Assembly (NCBI GenBank): GCA_963681505.1 | Contig: OY811972.1 | Span: 13,620,190 to 13,684,189 of the forward strand | Reading direction: 5' to 3' | Length of the DNA: 64,000 nucleotides | DNA from: Eunapius fragilis | Lineage: Eukaryota > Porifera > Demospongiae > Spongillida > Spongillidae | In this document: in pieces, positions 1,639-28,060 of the stretch | How positions within the stretch are numbered: position 1 is the first letter of the stretch | Layout of the letters: each line of letters begins with the position of its first letter | Program-made: the position numbers and the translations under genes | The notes under the pieces: model-generated | The model's database searches: none | Seen by the model: only the letters and a program-made list of their open reading frames with translations | Told to the model about the DNA's origin: nothing

Positions 1639-2690
1639 TCACTTGGTGGAGGTGGTGGAGGAGTGGATGGGCTCAGTCGACTCCATGTGACTGAAGACGA
1701 AGGTCTGGGGACTGTGGAAGGTGGGGAGGTGGGTCTTGTTGCTGCTGAACCGCTTGATGCACACTATCACTGTTGTTAGGACGACAAGAAGCACTAAGGC
1801 TAAGGCGGTCACTGCCAAGGCTATGAGGGCAGGCTGCCATGAGTTGGATGGTACTGTGGCTATGTAGAAAGAGACATACATGCCTCTATCCAATCAATAA
1901 CATCATTACTATGACCATCACTGTAACATCACCATTATTGGGCTATTACATTCAATGTCTGTACAAGGGTACGGATGGAAAAAATAGTTATTAGCTTTGA
2001 TATTTGTAATGTTTATTTAACTGATTTATTGTAGCGTCCTGAAGGGTCATTAAATGGAATAGCCCATTATCTTTATCCACCACCATCCTCATCACCACCA
2101 TCATCACCATCACCACCCTCATCACCACCATCCTCATCACTACCATCCTCACCATCACCATCACCATCACCACCATCTCTATCCCACTTACCTGTATTGG
2201 TCGACAAGACAGAAGGTGTTGAACTGGGTACAGGCATGTAGGGCTGGATGGCATAGCTAAAAGTGATGTTGGCTGTGCAGTTGTCAGCATTGCATAAGCA
2301 GCTCACCACGCCTGCTTGTGAGTCAAGCAGGACCAGCTCGCTTGTCAAGTTCCCCCTCCCAACGCACGTTGGAGGGGTGGAGTCACAGTCAAAATGGGCG
2401 TCATGAAAGATGCAATCAGAGATGAAGACGTGGCCACTCCCACTGCCATTGACGTGATAGTAACTGGCGTAGCAGTGTAAGCCGGGAGTGTTGCATCTCT
2501 CGACTTTGCAGGTGGAGGTGTCACCCATGCAGGTCACTACCTGGGTCACATTGTCCACACTGCAGTTGGCTGGGGCGTTGTGGCAGAGGAGGCAGCTGTC
2601 GGTGGCACAGCCGAGGGGTCGTCCAGTTGGGGCATAGTAAAGGAGAACCACGAGTGCTGCATGCAGGGAAGAGCGTAAGACAGTAAATCA

Positions 2691-2752
<62 letters not shown>

Positions 2753-3335
2753 TCGCACACACACACACACGCACTCGCACACACACGCACACACACGCAC
2801 GCACACACACGTACACGCACATGCTGCGTGTATCCCTTGGCGGTTCCACTGCGCTCGCTTTTAGTGATAGGCCTATTGGGCTATTCCATCATTTAAAGAT
2901 ACACCCCTACAGATCGTTTACGTTTGCCATCTAGATGGCAAACACGTAACCCCCCGGGACAATATGTAAAATCACCCCTCGACAGGCGTCCATTTTCTCT
3001 ACACCCCCCGGGACAGGCTTTAAAGTATACCCTGGACAAGCGTATATTTTATTACACCTACCCTGGACAAGCGTATGTTTTATCTGCGGGACAGGCATTT
3101 ATACCACCAGCACCCGGGACATATTTCCAAAACTCCCCTGGACAACCTCATGTTTACAAACACCCCCCCGTGGACGCCTTTTGTTGTCATCTGTAGGGGT
3201 GCACGGCTAAATAGCCCATTGCGGTACTAGAGCTTCGGAAAATCGAGTGTTATACGCGCGGGCTGTTCGGGTTTACGTCCTAAGCGCTTACTCACTGGTG
3301 TATAACAGTTTTCTTATAGCCCCGATCGGTAGCAT
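1639..3335 (-). CDS. Ly6-like cysteine-rich single-pass membrane protein, paralogue 1
   Basis: I reconstruct three coding exons: 3335-3296 (ATG, start of signal peptide), 2656-2192 (ectodomain) and 1859-1639 (membrane helix and tail). They are joined by two phase-1 introns with GTGAGT and GTAAGT donors, giving a 241-residue type I protein. The ectodomain has 14 cysteines, including the motifs GDTSTC and C-x-C-NADNCT, and several N-glycosylation sequons. A helix of about 25 hydrophobic residues ([20 protein letters not shown]) follows, then a tail of about 40 residues rich in Ser/Thr. There is no kinase or other enzymatic domain. The ending recalls Ly6/uPAR or TGF-beta-receptor ectodomains, but the family is not one I can name. 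Surface receptor or adhesion function is inference. Intron 1 holds a TIR element and a CA repeat; intron 2 holds a CAC/CAT repeat. Confidence 0.8.
2085..2175. repeat. Trinucleotide (ATC/CAC)n array in intron 2
   Basis: Imperfect CACCAT/CATCAC repeats immediately downstream of the ectodomain exon donor. The same array is shorter in unit B at 6293-6335. The long apparent reading frame across it is intronic. Confidence 0.85.
2693..2815. repeat. (CA)n microsatellite in intron 1
   Basis: About 120 bp of CA repeats with CG interruptions, next to the acceptor of the ectodomain exon of paralogue 1. In unit B the same position has only a few CA units (6833-6900). Confidence 0.9.
2877..3218. mobile_element. 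TIR element with internal CCGGGACA-type array, in intron 1
   Basis: It is bounded by inverted ends (TGGGCTATT at 2877 and AATAGCCCA ending at 3218) that include a second matched block, ACCCCTACAGAT / ATCTGTAGGGGT. The interior holds about nine degenerate copies of C(C/T)(C/G)GGACA spaced roughly 25-35 bp apart. It lies within intron 1 of paralogue 1 and is shared with unit B at 6966-7285, so it predates the duplication. I do not recognise the superfamily. Confidence 0.6.
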
Positions 3336-3362
3336 GGTCGGTCCGCTTCGACTCGCGCAACA

Positions 3363-3376
3363 TACTATATTATACA
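3363..3376 (-). promoter_or_regulatory. TATA-like box of paralogue 1
   Basis: On the minus strand GTATAATATAG lies about 30-40 bp upstream of the ATG at 3335. The AT-rich element is partly kept in unit B (TGTATATTGG near 7425-7435). The short distance implies a very short 5' UTR. Confidence 0.35.
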
Positions 3377-3839
3377 CGGCCAATTTTCTACCTAATATAT
3401 AGGTTATTGTATGATCCACGCTTGAAAAATTTCCACTTCCGCAACGTCGGTGAAATTAGAAGTGAGTCGTATGAGTGGGTGGGGGGGGGGTTGGGGGGTG
3501 GGAGGGTATATTCATGGGCATTTGCACCATACATGGTGATAATGGATGAATAATATCCTCCCTATTAAGGCATTCCGCCGCCACTGCTCCGACTCGATGG
3601 AGTCAGCCTCATCATTTGTTACAAGGGCGTAGACATAGTTTTAAGGGTGGGTGGGTGGGGGGCTATTTGTGGTTACATTTGCGTGTGCGTAGTTTTGTTT
3701 GTGAATACGATGTCGTTGCTCTCCTGGCTTGCTGCAAAGAGCTGTACACTTCCAACTCAAAGCAATTACAAGCGTGCATGTGACGCAATTGTAATACGTT
3801 GTCACATGCAACCTTATTGAATAGCGCGCGCTTTACAAA

Positions 3840-3915
3840 CGACTTCTGAAATTTTAATAACTCAACTGCGGTGGGGCCGGGGGGGAGGGGGGGGGGGGGG
3901 AGGGGGGGGGAGGGG
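3840..3915. repeat. G-rich tract, unit A only
   Basis: About 60 bp of nearly pure G with a few A interruptions. It is absent from unit B. The proline-rich frame on the opposite strand is an artefact of this tract. Confidence 0.85.
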
Positions 3916-4146
3916 GAGGCATACTACTACGGGATCGCACGTCTGCACAAAGAGTACGGTTATACCAAGGCATAAGAGCAGTGCAGGGGCAAAATAAAAA
4001 TCCATTTCCATAAGTACTACGGTGCGTTATGCATAAGTTCCATGAACGCAAACCAGCAGAGCTGTACAGCGGATTCCATTTTAACATGCGGTACAGCCAA
4101 GAGACGCCCAAACTGACTCGATTGATTCTATGAATATTAAATTAAA

Positions 4147-4350
4147 GGGTCTATAATAAGAAGGGGAAATGTATAATAGTCCTATATTTCGCGCAACAAA
4201 CATAATGACCTACAAATGGGCGAAATATAGGACTATTATACATTTCCCCTTCTTATTAGACTCTTGTTTCCTTCCTTATTACACCAATATTGCCTTCTTA
4301 TTCCAATCCTATATGCCACCAACTTTCTTATAGAGAATGTTTTTATTACT
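4147..4350. mobile_element. Hairpin MITE, TTTAGCAC-type family, 5' end truncated
   Basis: An inverted core (GGGGAAATGTATAATAGTCC against its complement at 4222-4256) flanks a spacer. The outer right arm ends in AGAGAATGTTTTTATT. The complete relative at 61866-62151 defines the family ends. This copy lies between the two duplication units. Confidence 0.75.
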
Positions 4351-5228
4351 TATCCACACAGCAATATGAGTTTACTCAATGTCTTGTGCTAAGGATAGAT
4401 TTCCTTTATTTATGCAGTACAATTTTTGATTCTGTGAAACCATTTATTGCAGTGTACAACTGTAACAGAACTGGGGACACCAAAAAACATGGCCGCTGCT
4501 CTTCCCGGGATGACACTGCAACCTCTCTATAGGCGATTTCGTCTAACCCCCTTTGTGTGTGCTCGTGTGTGCGGTGAGTGCTAGTCGGGCTATGCCCAGC
4601 GTGTGTTGTATGTGTGTGCACACGCGTAATGCATGTGCACAGCATTGGTGCTAACTCTTGGAAACAAAAGTATATAAGACATTTCGTGTGACTATTTTTT
4701 TTGCTAACTAATGTGTGGTGTATATTATGCTGGTACGCTTTGGTTTGTGTGTATATATCTCTCTCTCTCATTATATTGTGCAATGCCACATGTACATGAG
4801 CAAAAACACACATGCACCCACATAGAATGTGATAACCAAAGCAGTGGCTACAATGATTTAGAGGGTGAACCCACACACCCTCTTAGAAATGACCCCTCAT
4901 TGAAAACGTTATGCACATCATGGCTTCAGTCATCATTCATTTGGACTGTGAGTAGTGAGCTTTTTACAAGATATCAGGTTGCAATCTTATATCAAGCTTC
5001 TAACTAGCAATTGCCTACAGCCTTAGCAACTGTACTCCAGTGCCTATGTAAACTCGATTTTAACCACAAATGTGATGGTTTCTGTGGTCACTTCTACATG
5101 TACAGGTTGTCAGTTTGAAATGATGCTGGCCTCATGAAGTAGTGGAGGCTTACAACTGGCACTCAACCATAGCCTATTGCTGTTGACATTTCCCTCATTT
5201 GAGTCTTGATAAGATTAAACACAGGAAG

Positions 5229-5230
<2 letters not shown>

Positions 5231-5293
<63 letters not shown>

Positions 5294-5332
5294 CGTGTGT
5301 GTGTGTGCGCATGTGTGTGTGTGCGCATGTAT
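5231..5332. repeat. (TG)n microsatellite
   Basis: About 100 bp of TG repeats with TATG and CGCATG interruptions; counterpart of 1141-1212. Confidence 0.9.
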
Positions 5333-5719
5333 GTGTGCATGCATTAGGATGTAAGGCATTTGATTGTATAGAGTCAGTATGTGTGGGGGTGTGTAACAGC
5401 TTCATACACGTACACATATACATACATACATACACCACATACATCAGTATATGCTCAGGACCTATACACACATGTGAAAAGTTGTACTAGTTGGTGTCCT
5501 CCGTTCTCTTTTTTTTTAGACCTCACTCCCATTCATTTATTAATCCATGAATTGGTTAGTGGCCATGGCTGTATATTGAAATGTTAGATTGGTTTGTGTA
5601 TTTTTAACTATGACACAGACACCATTGTTGTTGAAATAGTGGCAACGCTTCATACGAAATAATTGAAAAGTTGTCTTGTGTACAGGTAAACATGACCTGT
5701 GTACAGGACAATATTTGAG

Positions 5720-7402
5720 TCACGTGGTGGAGGTGGAGGTGGAGGTGGAGGAGTGGAAGGGCTCAGCTGACTCCACGTGACTGAAGACGAAGGTCTGGGG
5801 ACTGTGGAAGGTGGGGAGGTGGGTCTTGTTGCTGCTGAACCGCTTGATGCACACAATCACTGTTGTTAGGACGACAAGAAGCACTAAGGCTAAGGCGGTC
5901 ACCGCCAAAGCTATGAGGGCAGGCTGCCATGAGTTGGATGGTACTGTGGCTATGTAGAAAGAGACATACATGCCTCTATCCAATCAATAACATCATTACT
6001 ATGACCATCGCTGTAACATCACCATCATTGGGCTATTACATTCAATGTCCGTACAAGGTGGTAGTCTCGTACCCAGACTCTGGTTCCCACAGCTGCAGGT
6101 GGATTACATCACTGTAGCGGTGATGTAATCCACCTGCAGCTGTGGGAATCAGGGTCAGGGTACGAGACTAGGGGAAAAAATAATTATTAATGGTGGTTAG
6201 TTTTGATATCTGTAATATTCAGGGGGTTTATTAACTGATATATTGTAGCGTCCTCCATATCCCTGTAGGGTCATCAATTGGAATCTTTGTCCACCACCAT
6301 CATCATCACCACCATCACCACCATCACCATCCCATCCCACTTACCTGTATTGGTCGACAAGACAGAAGGTGTTGAATTGGGTACAGGCATGTAGGGCTGG
6401 ATGGCATAGCTAAAAGTGATGTTGGCTGTGCAGTTGTCAGCATTGCATAAGCAGCTCACCAGGCCTGCTTTTGAGTTAAACAGGTCCAGCTCGCTTGTCA
6501 CGTTCCCCCTCCCAACGCACGTTGGAGGGGTGGAGTCACAGTAGAAATTGGGGTTATCAATGGAGATGCATTCAGAGATGAAGACGTGGCTCCCACTGAA
6601 TTGGTAGTAACTGGCGTAGCAGTGTAAGCCGGGAGTGTCGCACCTCTTGACTTTGCAGGTGGAGGTGTGACCCGTGCAGGTCACTACCTGGGTCACATTG
6701 TCCACACTGCAGATGGCTGGGGCGTTGTGGCAGATGAGGCAGCTGTCAGTGGCACAGCCGAGGGGTTGTCCGGTTGGCACATACAAGAGAACCACGAGTG
6801 CTGCATGAAAGAGTGTAAGATAGTAAATCAGTACACACACACATGTACTAACTCACACACATACGCACTCTAAACACACACGTGCGCACACATATACACG
6901 TGCACGCACATGCTGCATGTATCCCTTGACGGTTCCACTGCGCTCGCTTTTAGTGATAGGTCTATTGGGCTATTTAAAAATACATCCCTACAGATGGCAA
7001 TAATTGCAAACGTAAACCCCCCGGGACATTATGTAAAATCACCCTGGTCCTGTGGACAGGCGTCCGTTTCCTCTACACCCCCCGGGACAGGCTTTAAAGT
7101 ACACCCTGGACAAGCGTATATTTGATTACACCTACCCTGGACAAGCGTATATTTTATCTGCGGGACAGGCCAGCACCCGGGACATATTTCCAAACTTCCC
7201 CTGGACAACCACATGTTTACGACACCCCCCTGGACACCTTTTGCTGTCATCTGTAGGGGTGTACGGCTAAATAATGAATAGCCCATTGCGATATTAGAGC
7301 TTCGGAAAATCGAGTATTATACGCGCGGGCTCTTCGGGTTTACGTCCTAAGCGCTTACTCACTGGTGTATAACAGTTTTCTTCTAGCCCCGATCGGTAGC
7401 AT
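5720..7402 (-). CDS. Ly6-like cysteine-rich single-pass membrane protein, paralogue 2
   Basis: Three exons exactly parallel to paralogue 1: 7402-7363, 6800-6345 and 5949-5720, with phase-1 introns. They sum to 726 nt including the stop, giving 241 residues. Signal peptide start, 14 ectodomain cysteines, membrane helix and Ser/Thr-rich tail are all conserved. The membrane helix is identical to paralogue 1 apart from synonymous changes. The stretch between cysteines 8 and 10 (coded around 6541-6605) is strongly altered and two residues shorter. A MITE sits in the intron between the ectodomain and membrane exons. Function is unknown; a surface receptor role is inference. Confidence 0.8.
6062..6170. 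mobile_element. TAGTCTCGTACCCAGAC-type hairpin MITE
   Basis: 109-bp near-perfect hairpin with ends TAGTCTCGTACCC and GGGTACGAGACTA, located in intron 2 of paralogue 2. Unit A lacks it at the matching site (about 1968), so it inserted after the duplication or was lost from A. Same family as 19301-19420 and 62194-62326. Confidence 0.85.
6966..7285. mobile_element. TIR element with CCGGGACA-type array, unit B copy
   Basis: Counterpart of 2877-3218, in intron 1 of paralogue 2. The ends (TGGGCTATTTA and TAGCCCA) and the ACCCCTACAGAT-like inner block are kept. The interior is slightly shorter. Confidence 0.6.
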
Positions 7403-7685
7403 AGTCGGTACGCTTCGACTCCAATATACACGGCCAATTTTCTACCTCAATATAAATATAGGCTACTATATGACCCATGCTTGAAAATTTTCCACTTCCG
7501 CAACGTCAGTGAAATAAGAAGTGAGTCGTGTGAGTGATTGCCAATTTGACCTAAGCGGTTTGAATCGATAACGCGTTTCTAAGGCGCTTTCGCACTCCAA
7601 CCCGCTTCAATATTGAGTTGCGGTTTGGGCATAACAAAATTATTAAATTAAGATGGCCGCCTGTGGAACCATACATATGCATGGC

Positions 7686-7807
7686 AGTGGCGGCGGAAGG
7701 CCCTTAATAGGGTGGGGTGGGGCTGGGGGTGGGGGGATATTATTAATCCATTTGCACCATACATGGTGATAATGGATGAATAATATCCTCCCTATTAAGG
7801 CACCACT
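7686..7807. mobile_element. Foldback element around a G-rich spacer
   Basis: Left arm AGTGGCGGCGGAAGGCCCTTAA pairs imperfectly with the right arm CTATTAAGGC...CCACTG near 7793-7806. In unit A only the right arm (3563-3590, ending in TTCCGCCGCC) is well kept. The middle contains an ATCC-rich palindrome around ACCATACATGGT. Confidence 0.45.
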
Positions 7808-8075
7808 GATGGGGGGCGGCTGACGTCCTATTCCGACTCGATGGAGACAGCCTCATCAAATTAATCTACCAGGGGATTGCACGAGTACGGTTATACCAAT
7901 GCTTGGGAGCAGTGCAGGGGCAAAATAAAAATCCATTTTCATAAGTACATTAGCCCGCTCTTGTTAGCTTATTCCTACGGTGCGTTATGCATAGTTCCAT
8001 GAACGCAAACCAGCAGAGCTGTATAGCGGATTCCATTTTAATTAACATGCGGTACAGCCAGCCCAAACCGACTCG

Positions 8076-8831
8076 AACCGGGCCGCTATATTCTTAGTGC
8101 GGATCGATCTATAGATCGATGCGGTTTGAAGTGTCTAGTGCAGAAGCGGCTTTATTATTGAATCGTGTATCACTGTTACAGACACGTCATGTGAGAGCAC
8201 GTGACTGAAACGGGATGCGTCATGGCGGGTTTAATTCTGCTCCTGCCGACTTTCAAAAGCAGATAGGAACGACACACTTAAGCCATCAGAGATTAAGACA
8301 GATACACCCTGTGTGTTGGAATTGCGGGTGTACAGTAAAATTGTATTTACGTCATATATCTAAGTCTTGTATGGCATCTCACACACGTAAGTGTACTGCA
8401 TCCGTCCCTACCAAAGTTTACTCACAAGCTCCCGTCAGGCTGAACAACCTATACACAATCTTCCATCTTTTGAAGAAGTCTGCGAGTGTGGTGATAAGCA
8501 GTGATGCGGAACTCGTCCAAGATGTTCCGCGTCGTACACGTAATCATGTGTGGGTACTTAGATGCTTAAAGAGATACACTTTCTCCAGTTGCACGTGGCA
8601 CACACGTGACCATGCGGATCCACCCTAATATGCACCCTAAACATCCCCTCCCTAATCAAAATGCTATATTATATACAATACTGTCCTACAAAGGTTTGAT
8701 TACGTGATGGTTAATGTCTATATTGTCCTGAGTGTCCACTCGGGAGTAAAAATGGACACCCGCGGTGGACAGCAAAAAAAGTTTTTGCCGTTCGGTCATG
8801 GAAGGGGCCTAATTGCATTTTTAACGGTACT
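8076..8831. other. No gene recognised
   Basis: Unique sequence with a short palindrome at about 8102-8122. A 137-codon open frame at 8215-8628 has no recognisable domain, signal or coding context and is not called as a gene. Confidence 0.4.
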
Positions 8832-9035
8832 GGCTTATAGAACAAGTCTTTTTAGGATCGGGCCCCTTTTGATGCTTTTGGTATTCATAAAACGAGCCGT
8901 GCTGGCGGACCTATCCATTACGCTCCGCCTCGCATACGAGCTACGGCGTAATGGATAGGTCCGCTAGCACGGCTCGTTTTACGGATCAAAAGGACTTATC
9001 TCGACCCGATCCTAAAAAGACTTGTTCTATAAGCC
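8832..9035. mobile_element. 204-bp foldback element
   Basis: The outer arms GGCTTATAGAACAAGTC... (8832-8862) and their complement (9005-9035) are perfect over about 31 bp. A second nested palindrome at about 8886-8985 contains ACGAGCCGTGCT and GGACCTATCCATTACGC with their complements. No ORF. It abuts a gypsy pol fragment. Confidence 0.8.
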
Positions 9036-9492
9036 ACAACCTTAGGGTTGACTCGCTGCCCAAGTGACTCGAATGTAATCTTCTCAGGTAGTCTGCATGC
9101 ATGCCCTGAGCGACTCGGGTACCACAACCTTGTCCCCTTTGTAGATGATTCCATCTGCATCACCGTGTTTCCAAGGTATTTCCTGGGACTTCTCGAATAC
9201 TGGATCTGGCCCAGCGTTAGTTGCTCATGGTCAGTTCCTGCAGCCTTCTTCACTTCTTCAAGTCTTTGGTCTTTATGCCAGACACTCCAGTTCAATCGCC
9301 ACATAGTATATATAACCTTGGATGCTGATGCCATTGGTCGACCTTCCTGTATAGAAGAGTGGCTCCTAGTCCTTCTGTACTGGCATCACATTGTATCACC
9401 ACTGGTTTCTTGACGTCATATAATATGCCAGAAGCTGATCGCTGCTGATCAGGTCCTTGGATGTTGTCGAATATGCTACATGCTTGTACAGT

Positions 9493-9524
<32 letters not shown>

Positions 9525-9735
9525 TGCAAACTCCATGGCCATGTTGCCCTCAGTCAAGCGCCTCAGCGGTTCACTAGCCTGAGAGCGGTTTGGGATGAAT
9601 CTTGCCAGATAGTTGCACATTCCTAAGAACCTCCGCACATCAGATGCTGACTTTGGAGTAACCATGCCCTTGGTAGCCACCACCTTCAATGGATCCGACT
9701 TCACACTGTTCCCCGATATCCGCCCACACACTATT
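9036..9735 (-). pseudogene. Ty3/gypsy reverse transcriptase-RNase H fragment
   Basis: Minus-strand fragments in more than one frame. At 9731-9560 the RT thumb/connection segment contains DVRRFLGMCNYLARFIP. At 9420-9360 the RNase H start contains VIQCDASTEGLGATLLY. A 29-bp C/G homopolymer at 9495-9523 splits the two, and the frame is broken elsewhere. This is a decayed, truncated copy without LTRs in view. Confidence 0.75.
9495..9523. repeat. C homopolymer (29 bp)
   Basis: Uninterrupted run of C inside a gypsy pol remnant. Confidence 0.95.
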
Positions 9736-9942
9736 CGAGGGTCTTTGGGGACGAGAAACTGAAGTCCAACAATACTGGCCTTACATAGTTTAGAATGGCT
9801 ATCGTTATGTACAATAGGTCTGAACGTCCGCTGCTGTAAAAGGGTCTGGGACCGAGACTAGGCAGGCAACAGGGCATTTTTAGGTGGGGGGCTAAAAACT
9901 ATTTCATCGCTGACCTTTACCAAAAGGTAAAGGTCAGCGATG

Positions 9943-9965
9943 CCCCCCCCCCCCCCCCCCCCCCC
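9943..9965. repeat. C homopolymer (23 bp) with adjacent hairpin
   Basis: Preceded at 9908-9939 by a perfect inverted repeat (CGCTGACCTTTACC and complement) and followed directly by the start of a TAGTCTCG-family element. Confidence 0.9.
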
Positions 9966-9967
9966 TT

Positions 9968-10711
9968 TAGTCTCGTACCCAGACTCAGGTTCCCAACAGC
10001 TGCTGGTGGGGATTGCATCACCGCTACGTGGAAAGTGGATCTGGCCCATTCAACTTTTTTGTTCTGTGGATCCTCGAGTGTTACGCAATCTTTGTGTCGT
10101 CACATAAATGTGGGTGTCGTCATATACTAATTTACCGTGTCGTCATAACTAATTATCCGACTGAAAACAGAGAGAACGTGCGTGCCACCGCACCTAGTAA
10201 GACTACTGTGCAAATTAGGAAGCACCCAACAGGCACATGTCCTTTTATGACTGTGGCATGAGAAACAGTTAACCCTAACTCCGTCTAGTTCTCGAAAGCA
10301 TGCAGGAAGCCAGCTGCTACAAAAGATAGAAAGGAACGTTGAGGCTGAGGTTTTTCGGGATGATAGGTGCAGGTGGTCTGGCTTCCCTTCGCCAATCCTG
10401 TTCTCATCGAGTTCATAGCCGTGCGCAGTCGCGGGCGCGTCCTTGTCCTTGTAACGCTCCTGCCCACGATGAAGGCTTGTTTGCTCAGACCCGAGCGGAG
10501 GTATTTAGGCCTTCAAAACAGTCACCTCGAGGAGAAAGCTCCAATTGGAACGCTCTATGGAATGCAATTACACTCCTTATAATCAAGTAGCGACCATGAC
10601 GTCATCAAGGGCTGCAGTCTGATTGGTTCTCCAATATCTAGGATCCACAGTCTATGCGCCAGATCCACTTTCCACATAGCGGTTATGTAATCCACCCGCA
10701 GCTGGAGACTA
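9968..10711. mobile_element. Long member of the TAGTCTCG family with about 100-bp imperfect TIRs
   Basis: The left end TAGTCTCGTACCCAGACTC continues into AGTGGATCTGGC and GGATCC near 10030-10072. The right end mirrors this from about 10640 (GGATCC, GCCAGATCCACTTTCCAC) to GGAGACTA at 10711. About 550 bp of unique interior shows no convincing coding region, so this is probably a non-autonomous, partly expanded relative of the 110-130 bp hairpins. Confidence 0.6.
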
Positions 10712-11184: not shown

Positions 11185-11186
<2 letters not shown>

Positions 11187-11300: not shown

Positions 11301-11500
11301 NNNNNNNNNNNNNNNNNNNNNNNNNNNNNNNNNNNNNNNNNNNNNNNNNNNNNNNNNNNNNNNNNNNNNNNNNNNNNNNNNNNNNNNNNNNNNNNNNNNN
11401 NNNNNNNNNNNNNNNNNNNNNNNNNNNNNNNNNNNNNNNNNNNNNNNNNNNNNNNNNNNNNNNNNNNNNNNNNNNNNNNNNNNNNNNNNNNNNNNNNNNN
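11301..11500. other. Assembly gap (200 N)
   Basis: Exactly 200 N. The 41 bp before the gap (11260-11300) and the 41 bp after it (11501-11541) are identical, which suggests that the contig ends overlap and the gap holds no sequence. Confidence 0.95.
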
Positions 11501-15330: not shown

Positions 15331-16498
15331 CCTCAGTGCTGTTGCATATGCTGGTCCCCAGCCACCAGGACAACTGTCCCCTCGATGAAGACGCCAACGT
15401 CAGAGCGACGGGGAGAGGAGGGAGAGAGCTCCAAGCCTGCAGGTCCCGGAGCTGCCTCACCTGCACGAACCAGCCCGCCGTCTGCCGCGTGGACCCGACC
15501 AATCGGGTCGTGACCTGCAAAGGGGACACCTCCGCTTGCCGGGTGGAGGAGTGCGACCTCTGCAGCCGCTGTGTGGCCTACTACGGGGGTAACCTCACCT
15601 CCTTCAGGTTCGTGTCGGCCTGCATCTCGAGGGACTACCCTTACACCTGCGGCTCAACCCCGGCCAAGTGTTTCAGGAGCGACGCGGTGACGGGGGCGAA
15701 GGTGGGCGGGGCTAACGGCCTGTTCGATTCGGGCAAGCTGTGGTGCGGTTGCTATGGCGACAACTGCACGGCTGAGTTGGTGTTCCACTACATCGTCCGG
15801 AATGTCTCGGGGGTGGCGGTGGATACGTCAGCGGGTCCTTCAGTTGCACCCAGCACCGGCCATGATTGTAAGCTCATGGTGCTTGTACCGTTCTTACCCT
15901 GAACCATGCTTTTGTGTATGATGTGTGGCATGTGTGTGTGTGTATGTGTGTGTGTGCGTGTGTGCGTGCGTGTGTGTGTGTGCGTTTGCATGCATGGGGG
16001 TATGAGTTATATGTGTGTGTGTTTGTATGTGTGTGTGTGTGTGTGCATGTGTGTGTGTGCATGTGTGTGTGTGGGCATGGGGGTATGAGTTGTGTTGCAT
16101 GGGGGTATGTGTGTGTGCATGGGGTATGTGTGTGTATGGGGTATGTGTGTGTGTGCATGGGGTATGTCTATGTGTGCATGGGGTATGTGTGTACATGGGG
16201 GTATGTGTGTGTGCCCGCATGGGGGTATGTGTGTGTGCATGGGGGTATGTGTGTGTGCATGGGGGTATGTGTGTGTGCATGGAGGTATGTGTGTGTATTA
16301 GGATGTTGTGTGCACATGGTAGTGTTGCATGCGTGTGTGAACATTTGAAGTGAACACTGTTGGTATGAAGTCCTGTGTATTGCAGAGATGCCCACACTGC
16401 ACGCATGAGATCATATAATACATGCCATAAATATGAGTCATCTGTTATACATGTACCTGAGTGCAGAGAGATAGCAACACAATAGAAGGTGTGTGTGT

Positions 16499-16539
<41 letters not shown>

Positions 16540-16894
16540 TGTGTGTGTGTGTGTGTATGTGTCTGTGCGTGCGTGTGTTAGGGTTCATGTATGCATTACT
16601 TAGGTATGGGGTCCATCACTTGTAAAAAGTGTGACCCTCATCCGTCTGTCCTTTGGATTAATGCCCCTTCCCATTCTGTTCCCCTTCACAGCGCAACAGG
16701 TACCCGCGGAGGTGGGGACGGTGGAGGTACAGTTGTACGAAGTGGTCATAGCCATGCTCTCGTGTGTCCTGTTTGTTGCCCTTGTCGCAGCGCTCATCCT
16801 ATTGGGCCTGGGGACAAGGAAGGTATTCCTCAAATTCCGAGCCGAACGTGCAGAAAATTCGTTCAAATTTAAGAAATTCATTCCTTTGGAGTGA
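15331..16894 (+). CDS. Ly6-like cysteine-rich single-pass membrane protein, paralogue 3 (5' exon unresolved)
   Basis: Two exons are supported: 15331-15867 (ectodomain; acceptor after a polypyrimidine run, donor GTAAGC) and 16692-16894 (membrane helix, tail and TGA). Both junctions are phase 1 as in the paralogues. The ectodomain keeps the family spacing: SCLTC, GDTSAC, a CxxC before YY, ACISRD, then C-x-C-YGDNCT. The membrane segment is about [20 protein letters not shown], followed by a basic tail ending KFKKFIPLE. This is the only paralogue on the plus strand and has richer GC codon usage in exon 2. Intron 2 is filled by a TG/ATGGGGGT minisatellite. The start exon is missing from the model. 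Confidence 0.7.
15928..16310. repeat. TG microsatellite and GCATGGGGGTATGTG minisatellite in intron 2 of paralogue 3
   Basis: TG repeats grade into about ten units of roughly 20-22 bp built on GCATGGGGGTATGTGTGTGT (16085-16295). The many open frames across it, on both strands, are repeat translations. Confidence 0.9.
16491..16573. repeat. (TG)n microsatellite
   Basis: About 80 bp of TG with TATG interruptions, upstream of the last exon of paralogue 3. Confidence 0.9.
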
Positions 16895-19150: not shown

Positions 19151-19300
19151 GAATCTACGCACTTCTAGATTAAACTAGAACCATCGCATATATGGTCGTT
19201 CATATGATGCATGCTCAAGCATTTTTTCAGTCACTACTAGGGTCAGACATGACAGACCCTGTTGGGAGCATGGACCTGGCACGATATCGCTTAGTGGACA

Positions 19301-19420
19301 TAGTCTCGTACCCAGACCCACAGTCACAGCTGCGGATGGATTACATCACCACTACCTACCCTCGCATAGCGGTGATGTAATCCATCCGCAGCCGTGAGTG
19401 TGGGTCTGGGTACGAGACTA
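19301..19420. mobile_element. TAGTCTCG-type hairpin MITE
   Basis: 120-bp hairpin with ends TAGTCTCGTACCCAGACC and GGTCTGGGTACGAGACTA. The flanking 9-mers TAGTGGACA and CATTGGACA agree at 7 of 9 positions, consistent with a decayed 9-bp target duplication. Confidence 0.85.
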
Positions 19421-19832
19421 CATTGGACATGTATACTGCATGTACTACATCAAGTGTCAAGGACTCCATTCTACAGTCTTTTGCCAAAATCAACACTAAA
19501 CTTCGACTAATTATTGCCACTGTTACATTTGGAATGACATGGACATAAATATAGACATGGACGTAGACATAAAGTTTTTCTTTATCACTCACATTAACCT
19601 GATCCCCAACCCTTGATACCATTTCCCATAAGATGCTTTTGTCTTCCTGTGAAATGGAATACTGCTCAAGTGGCAGATAAATTTCTCTGAATACTTATGA
19701 ATGCATAGCAAGTATGATCTGAGACGTTGCATCTGTCAATGATACGTTTTTTTTTTTAAAATTTAAATGCGCTGGAAATTGGTCTGTCCATCATAAATCG
19801 TCTGAATTTAAGTTATGTAATATTACAGGGGA

Positions 19833-19932
19833 AGAGACGTGTGCATGCAGTTGTAATGTAAGCAATACAATACATTTCAATTGCATGCATTATATATATA
19901 TCACATACATTACAACTGCATGCACACGTCTC
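19833..19932. mobile_element. Foldback element
   Basis: GAGACGTGTGCATGCAGTTG... pairs with its complement ending at 19932 over about 27 bp, around a TA-rich spacer. It lies just beyond the 3' end of paralogue 4. Confidence 0.75.
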
Positions 19933-20005
19933 GCACCGATTAGGTCCATTTTAACGGCAAATTAAGATCTCATAAAGTAACAGTATCTATAGATTTCACA
20001 CAATG

Positions 20006-21053
20006 TCAAACTGGATGGGCATTACAAATGCTCTTCTTGATGGTGGCTACTATAATTGCCAAGGCAACCGAGAATGCAATAAATAGAACAATTGAGAGAA
20101 ATATGATGGCTATATTGTACGGCTCCAGCTTTGAGTCTGCTGCCGAAGTCACTATTGAACAAGAAATAGTTGTAGATACGACGGTGAACGATAATGAAAG
20201 AACAACAGTAGTGAAAAGCAAGTACTAGAAGCAATTTAATTAAGAAGCATGCAGTTTAAAAAGAAATAGCTATAGGATAAACATGCAGAGTAACACAACT
20301 AGCTTACTTATGGGATATGTAATCATCGTGGGCCCGGGAAATGATGTTGCCTGTGCGGGTTGGGTGGTGTTAACGATGTAAGTGAAGCTTAGATTTGCTG
20401 TGCAGTTGCTCGCTAAGCACGAACAGGAAATGGGACTGGATGAAAAAAGAGCGCTCTCATTCATTACGAGACCACTGCCAACACAAGCATAAGTGGACGA
20501 ATCGCAAGTGTACGTAGGGTCATTGGAAATGCAGCCTGACGTGAACCGATAATCGACGTGGTTGTCTGAACTCTTGAAATAGTAGGACCCGCAATGACTA
20601 CAGGAGTCACACGTGATCACGCTGCAAGTTGAAGTGTCTCCACTGCACCTCACAGTTCCGTTGGTTTGATGTACGGTGCAGTTGGCTGGGGCATTGGCAC
20701 ACGCCAGGCACTGTTTGGCCAGACAACCTTGCGAGGAGCCACTGTTCGAAGGGCAGGACTGCTGCTGCTGCTGCTGTACAGTTATAGAGAGTGTGCAAAG
20801 CACCACCAAAGCTGTGTGGAGGTGGGCATCAAATCAAAATAGCAATATAAATAATAATACCGCTTGAAGCATGCATCCACCTATATCGGTTTTCAGCGCC
20901 ACGGTGTATGCATGCATGTGTGAAAAAAAAAAAAGAAGGAATCTTCATATAGGACAAATGCATACGCGGTTTTAAATTCAGACCATATTGTATGATTAGG
21001 TGCAGTGGGAATACCGTACTACCCCAGCTCTTACTGCTAAGACACAATGGCAT
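20006..21053 (-). CDS. Ly6-like cysteine-rich single-pass membrane protein, paralogue 4
   Basis: Three exons: 21053-21035 (a 19-nt start exon, donor GTAAGA), 20811-20308 (ectodomain, donor GTAAGC) and 20151-20006 (helix and tail). Phases are 1 and 1, giving 222 residues. The signal peptide reads MPLCLSTLVVLCTLSI. A short poly-Gln stretch (CAG repeat at 20760-20775) precedes the ectodomain, which has family motifs QCLACANAPANC, GDTSTC, CDSCSHC, YY and C-x-C-LASNCT. The membrane segment is about IAIIFLSIVLFIAFSVALAI, followed by a tail of only about 14 residues. Compared with paralogue 1 the tail is much shorter and one extra CxxC cysteine is present. Function unknown. Confidence 0.8.
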
Positions 21054-21659
21054 AGATCAATATTTGGCGAGCCAAAACAATTGATTTTAATTAACTAACT
21101 GGTGAGGCTAGACCATTAAATTTATAATCAGCGTAAGCATAATAAATGCATTTATGGTTTGTAGAACAACAACAACAACAAAAAAAAAAAAAAAGAATAA
21201 TTCGATGCATATTATAGCGCGCTTCAGCAGCAGCGTGGAGATACCGCCGGGCCTCACGTAACAATGATTGGCGGATAAGACGTGGCATGGCCCGCATAGG
21301 GCGTAGCAATATTTGCCTCCGTCCTCGCTCGATCTGCCACCGAAATACGAAATAGCTTGTTGGCGCGGAGAAAATTAAATATTAAATTCATGGTGAAGCG
21401 GTTGGCCGCCAATTTAGTTATCGCCAAAAACGTCTTAACAGTATACGGAATATGATCAAATATATAACTGGCCACAGTACAGGGCCGTGGGCACGTTCGT
21501 GTTTTACAATAATCAATCGGGATATGGTTTTATTCGGCAATTTAAAAAAAAAAAGCATCAATTAAGACATTTCATGCATATTTGATGCACACGTACTGTA
21601 TCCTTCGACTGTGTGTTTGTAAAAAGGTGCATGCATTCATGCACGTATGTAAGCAATGC

Positions 21660-21790
21660 AATTGTGCCTGTGTTGTGTGCGTGTGTGGTGTGATTGCGTG
21701 CGTGTGTGTGCTGTGTGTGCGCGGGTGTGTGTGCGTGTGTGTGTGTGTGTGCGTGTATGTGTGTATGTGTGTTGTGTGTACGTATGTATG
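21660..21790. repeat. (TG)n microsatellite
   Basis: About 120 bp of TG/CG-rich repeats. No gene is supported between 21054 and 22896. Confidence 0.85.
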
Positions 21791-22269
21791 TGTATGAAGT
21801 GGCGCGCATATAACGTCCCTAACCTCCCCACGCACCTCAAACCCTTGACGTTCCGTGACCTTTTATACGTTCTCGCGCGGTTGACGTGAAGTAAAGCTAT
21901 ATAAGGCACCAACACAGAAGAGATCACAATATCAATGGTCCATATACCGTCTTTATATCAGTAGCAGCCACTGCGTGTTTGCATATGAACTCACCTGTGC
22001 CCATTACAAGGTCAGTTAAACACGCGGCTCTCGAGACCAGTGGTAACAACTAATATAACCGACGATAAAAACCACGCGTTATAAGGTAAACTGCGTTTAT
22101 GACATCATTCGTTAATTCAATCTCACTATATGCACTGATCGCCCGTTTTATACGTTGCCCACTATGGTGAACGAACGAACACAGACTCCTTATCAATATA
22201 GCGGCAGAATTCGTCATGCAAACTGCTAAAGGTGTCTTCGAGGTTTGTACGCTTCGGTGGCGAAGGAAG

Positions 22270-22295
22270 CCCCCCCCCCCCCCCCCCCCCCCCCC
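22270..22295. repeat. C homopolymer (26 bp)
   Basis: Uninterrupted C run in otherwise unique sequence. Confidence 0.95.
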
Positions 22296-22896
22296 GCATA
22301 TGTGCCCGCCCAGTGGGGTGCTAGGTAAACAAAGGTTGGAATTCGATAGCTCTCTTATCTTTGGTCGAAAGGCAATATATTCTACCTCAAAGCATTCCAT
22401 TCTACATCTTCCATTTCGTCAATCGTCTCGGGTGTCTAATTGGTCAATATAAGAACAAATCAAGTTACACGTCCGGAATTTGTTTAACCATGCCATGGCG
22501 ACTTTGGCTTAGTGTAAGCGATACCTTATGAAAGGCATTACGTTGTCCCCTAATTGCAGTGCGGCTCTATATAGCTTTTCCCGTTCTTCAGGCATAAATT
22601 ATATAGATTGTACTGATTATCGCATATAGTTCTTTCCACTCTTATAACCACAAAATTGTACGAACTCACGAATTATATTATACGTGCTATTGATGCATCC
22701 TTCTCGGATGGGGTGGGGCTGAGGTGCTGTTGGAACGCGTGACTGGAAAGGAGTTTAAACTGCCCAAGGTTCGCAAGCTAAAACTAATTGTTGTGAGGTA
22801 TTATACAGCCGTGAGAGTAATCAAAAACGTTGCCTTAACTTGATTGTTACATGTACGACGCCATGCAGCTCGGGGAGGTAAAAATGACCGTGAATT

Positions 22897-23163
22897 ATAT
22901 ATGGGACAGTGTCCAGCTAAATCACCCATATGGTACTTTTTCAAAATTTCCAGAACAAGCAAAAGAAAAGTAACGCTCGCATTGAAATGTATGGCTAATT
23001 ATAAATTCAGTGCCTAATAACTTTGTGATGGATAGTCCGATTTAGGATGCGTAAGGACCATTTGACAGAAGCTCATGGGTGTTCAAGGAAAATCAAAAAA
23101 TTTGAAAACTTGAAAAACTAGCCAGAAGGGTGATTCTGCTGGACACTGTCCCATATATATATA
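22897..23163. mobile_element. MITE with ATATATGGGACAGTGTCCAGC ends
   Basis: Terminal inverted repeats of about 28 bp: ATATGGGACAGTGTCCAGC at 22899-22917 against its complement at 23139-23159, with inner AAATCACC / GGTGATT also paired. They flank about 200 bp of unique sequence. The TA-rich ends could reflect a TA target duplication. Confidence 0.75.
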
Positions 23164-23291
23164 ATTATATATAATTCGTTAATGAATGTTAAAAATCCCT
23201 CTTGTGAAATCTATACAGAATTCTTATGCACTGACATGCAGAAGCTTTACGCAAGTGTGCTCACGCAATCATCTAACAACTTAATCTTAAT

Positions 23292-23294
<3 letters not shown>

Positions 23295-23332
<38 letters not shown>

Positions 23333-25130
23333 TACAGCAAATACACACACATACAGCCATTATACATATCACATAACTTATGAGAATTTTTAACCAATAA
23401 ATGGTTCAATGCATGATTGAGTAAAGAGCGGCCCCATCCTCAAAGCCCAGGCCACTTCTCCACTTTACTCTGGAACCCCTTAGGCATAAGCTGGCTGCTC
23501 TGATGATGGCAAATGAAAGCCTTGCTCTGATGTAGCCACATGTTTGTGCATAAGACTTTTTCCATTTGCTTGCAACACATGTGGCCATTCTCTTCAGGAA
23601 GTGCTCTGCTTCCCGGTGAAGGAGTCCATCAACTGAAATCACAAAGGGTGTAAAAGTACCTCTCCGATCTTCAACTGCTTGCCTGTAAATTCTCTTTTTT
23701 TCCTGAGCACCCGATTCAAGAACTGATTCTGGCGAGCGATTGCTGTATGATGGGGCATCTGTATCAATGACCTTGAAGTCAAAGAGCGCCTCTGCCTGAG
23801 GTTGCCAAACACCACGCACCCCCAAATCCAGCCTCAACCCTGAGTCATCCACTTGTGTTTCTGCCTCTCTAACGATTGGCTCTCTGACAACCTGTGTCCA
23901 CACCTGTGCTGCAATATCTCCAACGCAATCTCTGATCTCATTATGTCTCTGGATAACTAGGCCACCAACCTTACAGTCAAGAGCATGTTGCAATGTTAAT
24001 GAGGCTCCACAACCATCACACTTTGAAGGAAGGTCTGTCGGGTCACGCATATAGCGAACCGCTAACCCATCTCTAAATTGAGCTGGAGACAGGTCAAAGT
24101 GACAAGTAGCGATTGGAAGGACAGATAACCATGCCGATGTTTTGCCGGAGATAGCTCTTTTAATGGCTCTTTTTCGCCTTGATGTGAACTGCATTAAAAT
24201 ACTGTCAAGTGCAGATTGGTAAGTCTGTTCCTTGGTGGTAACATGGTGTTTTCTAGCATCCCAAAGAGTATCTAAATGTTGTACTGGATCAAAGACATCA
24301 ACTCCTTTCACTGCTTCAACTAACACTTTAGTTCCTTGTCTGGATGTCTGGTAAGCTAAAGTTGCTGTATTAGTGGGGTCAAAAATCCCTAGTCCTGCTA
24401 GAGATGTTGGTAAAGCAAACAAAGCCTCCTCTGCTTCAGTGACACCTGCACCAAGCATAGCTGGAAAGAATTGCTTCTTGATTTTCTCATTTAGTGGTGT
24501 AAAAGCATCTGCACAGTCTGGTACAACTCTCTGGAGGAAGTCCCATTCACACTGCAAAGACTTTGTCAAAGATGCAAATGCAGCCTGGGGTGCCTTGATA
24601 GCAGCTTTGGACAATTTATCCACACAGTCTACCCAAACATCAACCTTTTCTCTGACAAATTGCACACAAAATTCCCTTTCACCAACCACACCTCCAAGAA
24701 AGCGATGTCCAGTAACGACTTTCACTCCCACATTTTGAAAGGCACTCTTGGCAATTTCCACATACTTCGATGCTACTACCACTACACTCTTAGTGGGTTC
24801 TGGGAAATAACCATAAGTAGGACCTCGTTCGATTAGACGATCCAGCCAGGAATGGATTGAATTCAATGGTCCTGCACATGCAGAATCATCAGCATACCAG
24901 CTCTGTTGATATTGCTCTCTGCAGCGAAGAGAGTTCACCAGTGGCATCATTGCTACAGCATATAGTAACATGGACAAAGGGTCACCCTGTGTTACTCCCT
25001 CTCTGCTGTAAAGGAATTCCTCAGAATTCCGTAACAGCAACACAGCAAAACCTCTGTATGTGTTGAAAAGAAACCTACTGCATCTAGGCTTTCTCCCTAC
25101 ATGCGTCATATACCTAATATGATAATTAAC
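23295..25130 (-). mobile_element. 5'-truncated non-LTR retrotransposon with restriction-like endonuclease
   Basis: On the minus strand an intact ORF (25109-23406) is followed by about 78 bp of 3' UTR and a 33-nt poly(A) tail (T run at 23295-23327 on the plus strand). The 5' limit is uncertain: the RT begins at about the B/C motif region, so the upstream fingers and any N-terminal zinc fingers are missing. No target duplication was identified. Confidence 0.75.
23406..25109 (-). CDS. R2-superclade reverse transcriptase with C-terminal zinc knuckle and endonuclease
   Basis: 567 codons, uninterrupted. Residues 36-50 carry GVTQGDPLSMLLY, and residues 71-78 WYADDSAC, the catalytic YADD of reverse transcriptase. 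A C-terminal CX2CX7HX3C knuckle is at 364-379. It is followed by RHN at 388-390 and a PD-(D/E)XK-like stretch (LRLDLG at 425, FDFKV at 443), as in elements that use a restriction-like endonuclease (R2, NeSL, CRE groups). The frame lacks the N-terminal third of a complete element, so it is probably a truncated insertion, although the intact frame argues that it is recent. Assignment to a named clade is not possible by eye. Confidence 0.75.
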   Translation of the reverse strand: MTHVGRKPRCSRFLFNTYRGFAVLLLRNSEEFLYSREGVTQGDPLSMLLYAVAMMPLVNSLRCREQYQQSWYADDSACAGPLNSIHSWLDRLIERGPTYGYFPEPTKSVVVVASKYVEIAKSAFQNVGVKVVTGHRFLGGVVGEREFCVQFVREKVDVWVDCVDKLSKAAIKAPQAAFASLTKSLQCEWDFLQRVVPDCADAFTPLNEKIKKQFFPAMLGAGVTEAEEALFALPTSLAGLGIFDPTNTATLAYQTSRQGTKVLVEAVKGVDVFDPVQHLDTLWDARKHHVTTKEQTYQSALDSILMQFTSRRKRAIKRAISGKTSAWLSVLPIATCHFDLSPAQFRDGLAVRYMRDPTDLPSKCDGCGASLTLQHALDCKVGGLVIQRHNEIRDCVGDIAAQVWTQVVREPIVREAETQVDDSGLRLDLGVRGVWQPQAEALFDFKVIDTDAPSYSNRSPESVLESGAQEKKRIYRQAVEDRRGTFTPFVISVDGLLHREAEHFLKRMATCVASKWKKSYAQTCGYIRARLSFAIIRAASLCLRGSRVKWRSGLGFEDGAALYSIMH

Positions 25131-25279
25131 AGAACGCGCTGCATGGGAATATAAATTTTAATCGACATTTATCATACTGCTGGATTCCTATAGACCATTT
25201 TCATGTGTCACAAGATAATTAACTAGATCACGTGTAATACCGGTGGCGGCCATCTTGTGCACAGGAAGTGATTGTAACT

Positions 25280-25435
25280 ATGGTATTGTGTGCAGTAATT
25301 GGGTTTTACAAGCGTTCCGACCGTGACAAAGATGTCTCGTTCAATCGAATACCTGCTGTTATTAACCACATTAGAGGTGAGCGTGAACGGGAGCTCAGTG
25401 AACGACGAAGAGACGGCTTCCTTGCTGCTCTTTGA
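25280..25435 (+). pseudogene. THAP zinc-finger domain remnant
   Basis: 51 codons from ATG at 25280 to TGA at 25433. It reads as the N-terminus of a THAP domain: MVLCAVIG, then DVSFNRIPAV, GERERELSERRRDGFLAAL. The second zinc cysteine is replaced by Phe (IGF instead of GC) and a TGA interrupts the domain before its AVPTIF-type end. It starts about 30 bp inside the inner edge of the left inverted repeat, as expected for the start of a transposase gene. Confidence 0.7.
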
Positions 25436-25469
25436 AGGCAAGACATTATAAAGACGACGCTAGCAAATA

Positions 25470-25649
25470 TCTACCCTCGATAGTGTCCGCGTCGATACAG
25501 TCCATCCGCGATTATGTCCGCTATTTTTCTCTTGCCAACCAACCTTCGTAAGCTAAACTTCGCATCGTTACTATCCGTTATTTGTCCTACAGTCCGCTCA
25601 GTACATTTTTGGGGTTCCCGTAGCCCGGACTATGTATATCGAGGGTAGA
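25470..25649. mobile_element. 180-bp MITE nested in the THAP element
   Basis: The ends TCTACCCTCGATAGTGTCCG and CGGACTATGTATATCGAGGGTAGA are inverted repeats of each other. The interior contains several TGTCC-type and GTCCG repeats. The insertion lies directly behind the broken THAP frame. Confidence 0.75.
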
Positions 25650-26949
25650 CTGCATGTTCCATGCATTTTTTATCGGGAAAGCCTGCTGCCCAGTATGACG
25701 AGTTAAACCCAGATTGGGTACCGTTATCTTTTATTAGTTTCCTCCATTAAGGAGCTCTTGAACGGCACCCTGGCAATGGGAATAGGGGGAGCGGCTCAAC
25801 CGAGTAAAATTACTGGCGGCAATGGAGGGCCCGTAGTCTCCTTTTAGTCATCTTCATGCATAGGGGCTTTGGGAGGTTGGCCTGGAGTAGGGGAGAGGCT
25901 TCTTGCCAGTTCTCGTTCAACCTCCTTTGCTTTAACCATGTCATCTATGGGTAGGGATGGGACAATCAGTGAACCGATTTTTCTCTTTTTTGACGGCTGA
26001 TTGCTCTCTTCTTATTCAGAGCTCGATAGCCCTTTACCTTTATTGTCTGACATGACGTCAGCCCAGCTTTTCTGAGACTCCATCAACTTTAATGGATGCA
26101 TGTGGACAAACGCAAATTTGTAAATGCTCTGACTTAATAGCCATTACATCAAACCCTACGCGTTTCGTGGGGCCATGTGCCTCGCTACTCATCAGGGGTT
26201 TTGCATTCATCATATTATTATGCGTTTTGACAGCACCCGCCTATATATATCAGTACACGCCAAGCGCTAAGCTTAATAGCTTAATTTCAACATCTGAATG
26301 AGGCTATTTATTACCACAATGTATGGGTAATTATTTGAAGGTATATACCACTATGGGTATGTATACTACGGTCCTTATGGATCATTTTCCGCTCGGGTAG
26401 GGTCAGTGGTTGTAACTTATTTGCACTTCTCTTCGGAACCCAAAATCAAAATCAAATCAAAATCAACCGTTAATGATGGCAATATAGTGTTGACGTATCG
26501 TGCCTTAGCATCAGGGTCCAAGTTTTGAAAGAAACTGAAGCGGAATTAGACATCATCGCATGTGGTCTTGCGCCAGCTGTGCACCAAGATGGCGGCTTAC
26601 GTCATTTTTAATGTAACGTGGTCACATGATGAAAAAGGTCTATGTATATGGCACCTACTCCCGTAGGTTCCGATAATATAATTGCGCGAATTTAGACCTT
26701 ATTGATCACATGCTGTAAACCACGGCGGATCGCGTATAAAATTATACAGTACGGCGCTGACGCGTTCATGTATATGGCAGATTACGGAGTCGTCACGTGC
26801 ATGGTACACGATAAAGGGACATGTAATAATACGTGTTTATTCATACATGTAGTAAAAAGGAAAAGAATCCATGCAAACGCATCATGCATGCCTAACAAGG
26901 TTAAAATTGTACGATTAGTCCTCTTCTCCATCTTCGCCGACAGGATCGG

Positions 26950-28060
26950 CTACTGCTCTAATGTATAGCTTGCTTGAGTCCTTCTTACATACATGCCTGT
27001 ACCAAAAGCGACAGCAGCGGCAGCAACACAGAACAGAGAAACAACAGCAATAATGGTGATGTAATACTTCACAAGTCCTGTATATAGCGATTAAAATGCA
27101 GGTATGAAGAATCGAACTATGTAATTAATACATACAGCTCGCGAGCTTATTTGAACTCTGCATGTAGTATCCCTGTATAGTGCGAACAAAATTATCTTAT
27201 AAATACACATGGAAGACTGTATCCACTCACAGCTCACGCGACGCTGAATTGAAACAATGCGGGCGCGCAACTAAACCAATATACACAGCTTAGAAAATGA
27301 CGCGTACCGACTGTATTAATATTATACATAATTATAGTTATAATTGTATATTTATTAATTCGGCTCATGCATTAATTGCTCGCACAGCGTATAACCGGCT
27401 ACACATGCATGCAAGTACAATGAGTGAGTGCATGGACGAACCGTTTGCCACGTCGAACTCCGTGGAAGGTTCCAATAGAACAGAAGCGCTCGCTTGTGTA
27501 GGAAGCAAATGGAACTTGCTCAATGAAAGCGCTATTGATGGCGATGCTGACGGAGAAACATAATTAAGCTGCTGACTACTGGGTGAGATGCTGTAACGCA
27601 GCTCTAACATTGTCGTACAGTTCTGGCCATGACAGTTGCAATAGAAATAGCTCTGCTTAGCCGTTGTCGCACCTTCTCCGATGCAATCGCGACTGCTGGC
27701 GCTGTCGTCGCACGAACTCTGTGACGAAAGAGGAATGCAGAGAGACGAATGAGTGTATTGGCCAGTCGAGTGCGAGTGGATGTACACTCCAGAGCATATC
27801 TCGCAGTTTTTGCATTGGGCAATGGTGCAATTTGAAAAGTCAGCCGAACAGCGCATCTCCGGGGTACCGTCAGTTAAGGAGTTTCCGACGGCGCACGTAG
27901 CTGGAACGGAGGTGCACGTGATGCAGCTCTCGGCCCTGCAGTCCCGGATCCGCGCGAAGCTATTCGGACTTAACCCGCAGCCGCTGGAATCGTCGGGCAG
28001 AACGGCTGCGCAGGTTTCAAGCAGGAACGCCACAATGACCAGCAGCCGCGCTATCTTCAT
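26950..28060 (-). CDS. Ly6-like cysteine-rich single-pass membrane protein, paralogue 5
   Basis: The most divergent paralogue. The ATG at 28060 starts a clear signal peptide (MKIARLLVIVAFLLETCAA) in the same exon as the ectodomain; an upstream in-frame ATG at 28111 would spoil it and lies near the predicted transcription start. The ectodomain keeps ESCITCTSVPATC, the C-x-C-HGQNCT ending and most of the family cysteines. I propose a donor at 27442/27441 (AACG|GTTCGT, phase 1) joined to 27077-26950, which encodes a helix (YYITIIAVVSLFCVAAAAVAF) and a tail of about 17 residues ending TLEQ, for 248 residues. The donor is not a strong match. Read-through would give a shorter hydrophobic end instead. 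Confidence 0.65.

Follow-up and report, generated by a model that had tools for sequence, protein, structure and literature searches.

What kind of protein is encoded by a cluster of five cysteine-rich membrane protein genes on chromosome 2 of the freshwater sponge Eunapius fragilis? The stretch of DNA analyzed, hereafter the window, covers 64 kb (chromosome 2, C2:13,620,190-13,684,189), and its five genes, P1 to P5, had been described in an initial annotation as a free-standing Ly6-like family of its own kind. They are better explained, and probably so, as part of a tandem family of freshwater-sponge type II receptor genes for transforming growth factor beta (TGF-beta). Most members of this family would lack the kinase, a sister gene outside the window (P6) would have kept it, and the window copies would be membrane decoys or pseudoreceptors.

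Type II kinase of the sister gene P6

The P6 ectodomain lies about 4.2 kb beyond the window (C2:13615629-13615976, locus L044) and shares 81% identity with that of P1. Its exon is followed by a transmembrane exon whose phase is that of its counterparts in P1 and P2. From there the open frame passes through a juxtamembrane sequence (...HSSTT) shared with P1 and P2 and enters a protein kinase, and more kinase exons come after it. These exons were joined by eye, and the extreme end of the kinase falls outside the stretch read. The joined kinase was assigned to Pkinase by Pfam (6.1e-26). Among the PDB matches listed, the top seven were chains of ACVR2A (1.3e-56), BMPR2, ACVR2B, and TGFBR2, ahead of all type I receptors, and a LDPTL...ANSGQVGT stretch is common to the P6 kinase and TGFBR2. 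In a kinase tree of 11 rows, support of 99/99 set the five type I rows apart from a type II side made up of P6 and the remaining rows; branching order on the latter side was not resolved, and the P6 branch was long. The GS box (PF08515) had 12 matches in the genome, six of them above cut-off and none at the locus of P6 and the window. Going by its sequence, P6 carries a TGF-beta receptor type II kinase.

This sister gene contradicts the idea of a free-standing Ly6-like family. Since its kinase is of type II, the family can largely be placed among named receptors, an outcome that the initial annotation had itself regarded as speaking against its proposal, while Pfam and PDB profile searches are blind to the ectodomain alone. 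The lack of enzymatic domains, which had also been put forward, applies to P1 to P5 in the window and fails for P6.

Absence of the kinase in the window copies

The P6 kinase had no match in the whole window at E up to 1. The transmembrane and juxtamembrane exons of P1 and P2 match that of P6 at 61 and 68%, respectively (E values in Table 1), and both genes stop in the Ser/Thr-rich linker immediately before the position of the kinase. The tails of P3, P4, and P5 are short and unlike the sequence of P1, P2, and P6. An assembly gap concealing kinases was considered and rejected: the sole run of N in the window and L044 is found at 11301-11500, upstream of P2 and P3 by their reading directions, and no such run lies between P6, P1, and P2. 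Since the window has no kinase match, P1 to P5 are classed from their sequence as kinase-less paralogues and not as receptors proper. Loss of the kinase by the other copies is preferred over gain by P6, because another type II gene of the genome has the helix and the start of the kinase in one open frame.

Gene models and family size

Each of the five window genes was read as a cysteine-rich ectodomain, one hydrophobic helix, and a short tail (Table 1), in line with the single helix and short tail first described. The terminal bases of all five fit the codons and splice sites that the DNA shows, and the annotated positions agree with them. The ectodomain exons of P1 to P4 have phase-1 introns at both ends, as had been proposed where the exons could be resolved, and the signal peptide and ectodomain of P5 share one exon. 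The first exons of P1 and P2 are near-identical, and that of P6 is likewise near-identical to them. P1 and P2 form a tandem repeat of roughly 4 kb, whose aligned segments are 73-89% identical.

Genome searches with the P4 ectodomain recovered P3 (E 9.7e-22), P1 (1.1e-19), P2 (1.4e-19), and P5 (5.4e-7), cross-matches beyond chance that bear out the clustered paralogues, and the P1 ectodomain recovered P5 weakly (E 0.0123). The searches with P4 and P1 together gave seven strong ectodomain loci, namely P1 to P5, P6, and P7 (C2:9885368-9885706). As the search goes exon by exon, locus counts are lower bounds; matches at E 0.284 and 1.41 with the P4 query, each with an internal stop, and at E 2.07 with the P1 query were left out. 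The family of five first described thus stands for the window, while the cluster extends beyond it to P6 and the genome holds at least seven members. At only one of the seven loci, P6, did the stretch read include a kinase.

The order of these exons bears on a rival explanation, in which some transcripts splice the ectodomain exons of P5, P4, P2, and P1 onto the transmembrane-kinase exon of P6 and thereby present different ligand-binding heads. These four of the five window copies do share the strand of P6 and precede it, with phase-1 donors in P1, P2, and P4 and a phase-1 acceptor on the P6 transmembrane-kinase exon. However, the copies read as complete genes: each one in the window is supplied with a separate transmembrane exon that includes a stop, and a separate start codon is present in P1, P2, P5, and P6 and, as a candidate, in P4. 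P3, moreover, is on the opposite strand. Such alternative cassettes are considered highly improbable.

Cysteine pattern and motifs

An ectodomain of about 14 cysteines had been proposed, and 14 were indeed invariant in all five window copies, while P3, P4, and P5 have 15. The motifs fared unevenly. The C-x-C-x3-NCT end, compared earlier with receptor ectodomains, occurred in all five copies, as did CxxCxxxPAxC. The strict form SCxxCxNxPAxC, GDTSxC, and CISxD were each confined to three of the five, and CxxC or CxxxxxxC ahead of YY to four. A degenerate DNA pattern for CxxxxCxxxNxPA had 13 matches in the genome against one for the reversed pattern; two of the 13 were in P3 and P7, and six were copies of one identical sequence.

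Kinship of the ectodomains

The ectodomains were compared in a shuffle test with cysteines fixed and the other residues shuffled (500 shuffles, scored by alignment; P1 to P6 covered, P7 not). Against the ACVR2B ectodomain, the real score was reached by no shuffle for P1 and none for P2. With ectodomain b from a different type II receptor in the same genome as reference, it was reached by 2, 0, 113, 12, 13, and 1 shuffles for P1 to P6, respectively. A profile of all seven members gave 7.8 bits against ectodomain b, higher than all 1000 shuffles of either type, and no signal for four type I ectodomains. Ectodomain b itself matches ACVR2B at 1e-5. Ectodomains a to c of this receptor also miss the PF01064 (activin receptor) cut-off, and its ectodomain c has a C-x-C-x4-C end (CECEGDFCN) similar to that of the window copies, which agrees with the receptor-like ending noted earlier. 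Phase-1 ectodomain exons were readable at three other receptor loci in the genome.

A number of results count against a type II origin of the family. Pfam assigned the five window ectodomain frames to no family at E up to 10, PF01064, PF00021, and PF16975 included, and a profile of the five ectodomains had no match in PDB. The real score against ACVR2B was reached by 387, 250, 26, and 52 of 500 shuffles for P3, P4, P5, and P6, respectively, and some type I ectodomains gave low numbers too (11 of 500 for P2, 21 and 24 for P1). The seven-member profile gave no signal for ectodomains a and c or for the ACVR2B fragment. Comparison by hhalign with type I and two type II ectodomains was weak, with a best E of 0.0026 over 18 columns. 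AlphaFold models of the five window sequences were poor, with a first half that is mostly strand and predicted local distance difference test (pLDDT) scores of 52.9 and 52.2 in two runs. Elsewhere in the genome, the P6 kinase exon best matches a type I kinase at C6, which we attribute to the larger number of exons over which the other type II kinases are divided. The ectodomain tree had no starred branch and does not separate kinase loss from gain. Ratios of nonsynonymous to synonymous substitution (dN/dS) among P1, P2, and P6 were 0.55-0.83 and not significantly below 1 in any of the four comparisons tested out of six (Fisher P 0.13 to 0.50), and purifying selection is therefore not shown for these young copies.

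The ectodomains of P1 and P2 appear to resemble the activin type II ectodomain beyond the cysteine pattern, and those of P3 to P6 do so weakly or not. Their presumed kinship with type II receptors is supported but mixed, with P6 as the main evidence.

Age of the copies and competing explanations

Synonymous divergence (dS) of P3 from P1, P2, and P6 was 1.29-1.41 and that of P4 saturated, with the frames of both intact (P5 was outside this comparison); P3 and P4 are, by this estimate, old yet intact. Among P1, P2, and P6 all 14 cysteines are unchanged, against variation in 25 of 115 gap-free columns (P 0.025). In view of these results, decay of truncated, functionless duplicates is a quite improbable explanation. 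The dN/dS of P1, P2, and P6 would fit it, as would P7, which seems from comparison with P3 to shift frame past the last conserved cysteine. The L045 stretch around P7 has no kinase match and one poor match to the P6 transmembrane exon (E 0.005) with an internal stop. However, none of the five window copies has lost its open frame or any of the 14 cysteines, and their resolved splice sites are canonical; P3 and P4 are intact despite their age, and the cysteines of P1, P2, and P6 show no change at all.

The age of P3 and P4 with their frames still open also fits lineage-specific surface receptors outside TGF-beta signalling, in which the ectodomain was reused for another ligand in self/non-self recognition, contact with microbes, or adhesion. 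This alternative is unlikely, though it gains from the lack of an ACVR2B-like signal over shuffles in P3 and P4 and from the short tails of P3, P4, and P5, which differ from that of P6. The receptor juxtamembrane sequence is nevertheless retained in P1 and P2, and Pfam found no immune or adhesion domain in the frames scanned. Only seven ectodomains were found, which is few for a diversified recognition family. For the immune, allorecognition, or adhesion role that the initial annotation had put forward, nothing in its favour was found in this analysis.

Comparison with known systems

The family is like type II receptors (ACVR2A, ACVR2B, BMPR2, and TGFBR2) in the sequence and tree position of the P6 kinase, the absence of a GS-box match, the single ectodomain exon, and the single helix, and the ectodomains of P1 and P2 align to ACVR2B. 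It is unlike them in that the sponge copies have 14 to 15 cysteines, with more on the N-terminal side, and the window copies have no kinase.

In the consulted portions of three sources (PMC3169577, PMC2657120, PMC11226491), BAMBI is described as a relative of type I receptors without a kinase, a pseudoreceptor by which receptor complexes are hindered, and it has one copy among the table rows listed in one of them (PMC2657120). Compared by description, the window copies share with it a TGF-beta receptor ectodomain and helix without a kinase and a predicted role as membrane inhibitor, their ectodomain identity resting mainly on P6. They differ from BAMBI in being multi-copy and apparently type II-derived: its type I descent does not apply to them because P1 and P2 share their transmembrane exon with a type II kinase gene.

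The three-finger fold is common to Ly6/uPAR proteins and TGF-beta receptors, and the small cysteine-rich ectodomain of the window copies is like that of the former. The Ly6/uPAR family was rejected as a placement, as Pfam matched no window ectodomain frame to it, and the kinase-bearing sister gene is a further difference. A genome-wide search for PF00021 gave no match, but control genomes were equally silent and the result is uninformative. Ectodomains a and b of the other type II receptor weakly matched PF16975 at 0.0043 and 0.01, below its cut-off. Any relation to Ly6 could at most be a matter of shared fold.

In other sponges, as given in the consulted parts of the sources, the receptor count is two of type II and three of type I for Amphimedon (PMC3169577, on the assumption that a table column refers to this sponge) and two of type II and four of type I, every one kinase-bearing, for Halisarca (PMC8235796). 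Within the share of open-licence literature matches covered, there was no kinase-less type II receptor in sponges and no clustered, mostly kinase-less type II family beside a kinase-bearing member. The kinds of parts are already known, and their clustered kinase-less type II arrangement beside a kinase-bearing member is what would be new.

Proposed role and implications

As kinase-less relatives of type II receptors, the window proteins would sit in the membrane and may bind TGF-beta-type ligands or join receptor complexes. Because they could not phosphorylate the type I receptor without a kinase, signalling would be lowered, buffered, or shaped. By analogy they would most likely be membrane ligand traps or pseudoreceptors, BAMBI-like but built from a type II receptor.

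In the portions consulted, the sponge Amphimedon and the ctenophore Mnemiopsis are without known diffusible TGF-beta antagonists (PMC3169577), and an inhibitory SMAD was not found in the sponge Halisarca (PMC8235796). The sponge Oscarella, in contrast to any general rule, has a Chordin orthologue (PMC11226491, likewise in part). If the proposed explanation is true, kinase-less type II receptors would be another sponge means of restraining the TGF-beta pathway, and reduction of receptors to pseudoreceptors would have occurred on the type II side as well as on type I. A further step would take the cluster as the sponge's own membrane-level TGF-beta antagonist system, of an origin independent of BAMBI, whose heads may also splice to one shared kinase to vary ligand specificity; we consider this rather unlikely. 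The family is also a warning that sponge receptor ectodomains can escape Pfam and pass as orphan Ly6-like families.

Coordinates of the window genes

Table 1. Genes P1 to P5 and their exons, in window positions (TM, transmembrane).
Feature	Position	Strand	Basis
P1 gene	1639-3335	-	
P1 exon 1: start codon and beginning of signal peptide, phase-1 donor A|GTGAGT	3296..3335	-	Sequence reading; near-identical exon in P2 and P6
P1 ectodomain exon, phase 1-1, 14 Cys, type II TGF-beta receptor-like	2192..2656	-	81% identity to P6 ectodomain; ACVR2B alignment
P1 TM and juxtamembrane exon, ending in Ser/Thr linker where P6 goes on into kinase	1639..1859	-	tblastn 61% to P6 TM exon, E 2.8e-24
P2 gene	5720-7402	-	
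P2 exon 1: start codon and beginning of signal peptide	7363..7402	-	Sequence reading
P2 ectodomain exon, phase 1-1	6345..6800	-	82% identity to P1
P2 TM and juxtamembrane exon, without kinase	5720..5949	-	tblastn 68% to P6 TM exon, E 5e-29
P3 gene	15331-16894	+	
P3 ectodomain exon, phase 1-1 (model starts here, without first exon)	15331..15867	+	Sequence reading
P3 TM exon, short tail, without kinase	16692..16894	+	Sequence reading; window kinase search
P4 gene	20006-21053	-	
P4 candidate exon 1: start codon to phase-1 donor A|GTAAGA	21035..21053	-	By-eye sequence reading
P4 ectodomain exon, phase 1-1	20308..20811	-	Sequence reading
P4 TM exon, very short tail, without kinase	20006..20151	-	Sequence reading
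P5 gene	26950-28060	-	
P5 open frame from start codon: signal peptide and ectodomain, 3' end probably partly intron	27368..28060	-	Sequence reading
P5 TM exon, very short tail, without kinase	26950..27077	-	Sequence reading

Other receptor loci and neighbouring elements

A further cluster of receptor ectodomains was found at C5:1999963-2210614 (L009-L018, L051, L063), where eleven PF01064 ectodomain exons above cut-off and one GS-box match occur in about 211 kb. Recent segmental duplication seems to account for some of these exons, and the sole kinase comes after two ectodomain exons. It resembles the window family in its clustered receptor ectodomain exons and differs in that PF01064 recognises them, which it does not in the window family. 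This cluster is a possible type I-side counterpart of the kinase-less receptors. At C2:14029500-14038300 (L062, L060), a type II receptor kinase follows three receptor-like ectodomain exons and an epidermal growth factor (EGF)-like exon read by eye, which suggests a candidate gene model for a multi-ectodomain type II receptor. Type II-like kinase exons that are nearly identical to each other occur at three places, C7:9855566, C7:9906266, and C9:3180229; one of their upstream stretches (L061) consists mostly of simple repeats, and no ectodomain was found.

Within the window, the cluster adjoins two regions resembling long terminal repeat (LTR) retroelements, one at 29799-34374 with zinc knuckle, protease, and reverse transcriptase matches in Pfam and a second at 37930-41072 recognized by eye. 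Between P4 and P5, a frame of 583 residues (23409-25157) weakly matches reverse transcriptase, at 5.9e-05 and short of the curated cut-off. An OTU-like cysteine protease domain at 34668-35393 (7.7e-07) is perhaps part of a mobile element, and an open frame of 382 residues at 42705-43850 encodes a rhodopsin-family G protein-coupled receptor (7tm_1, 2.4e-16).

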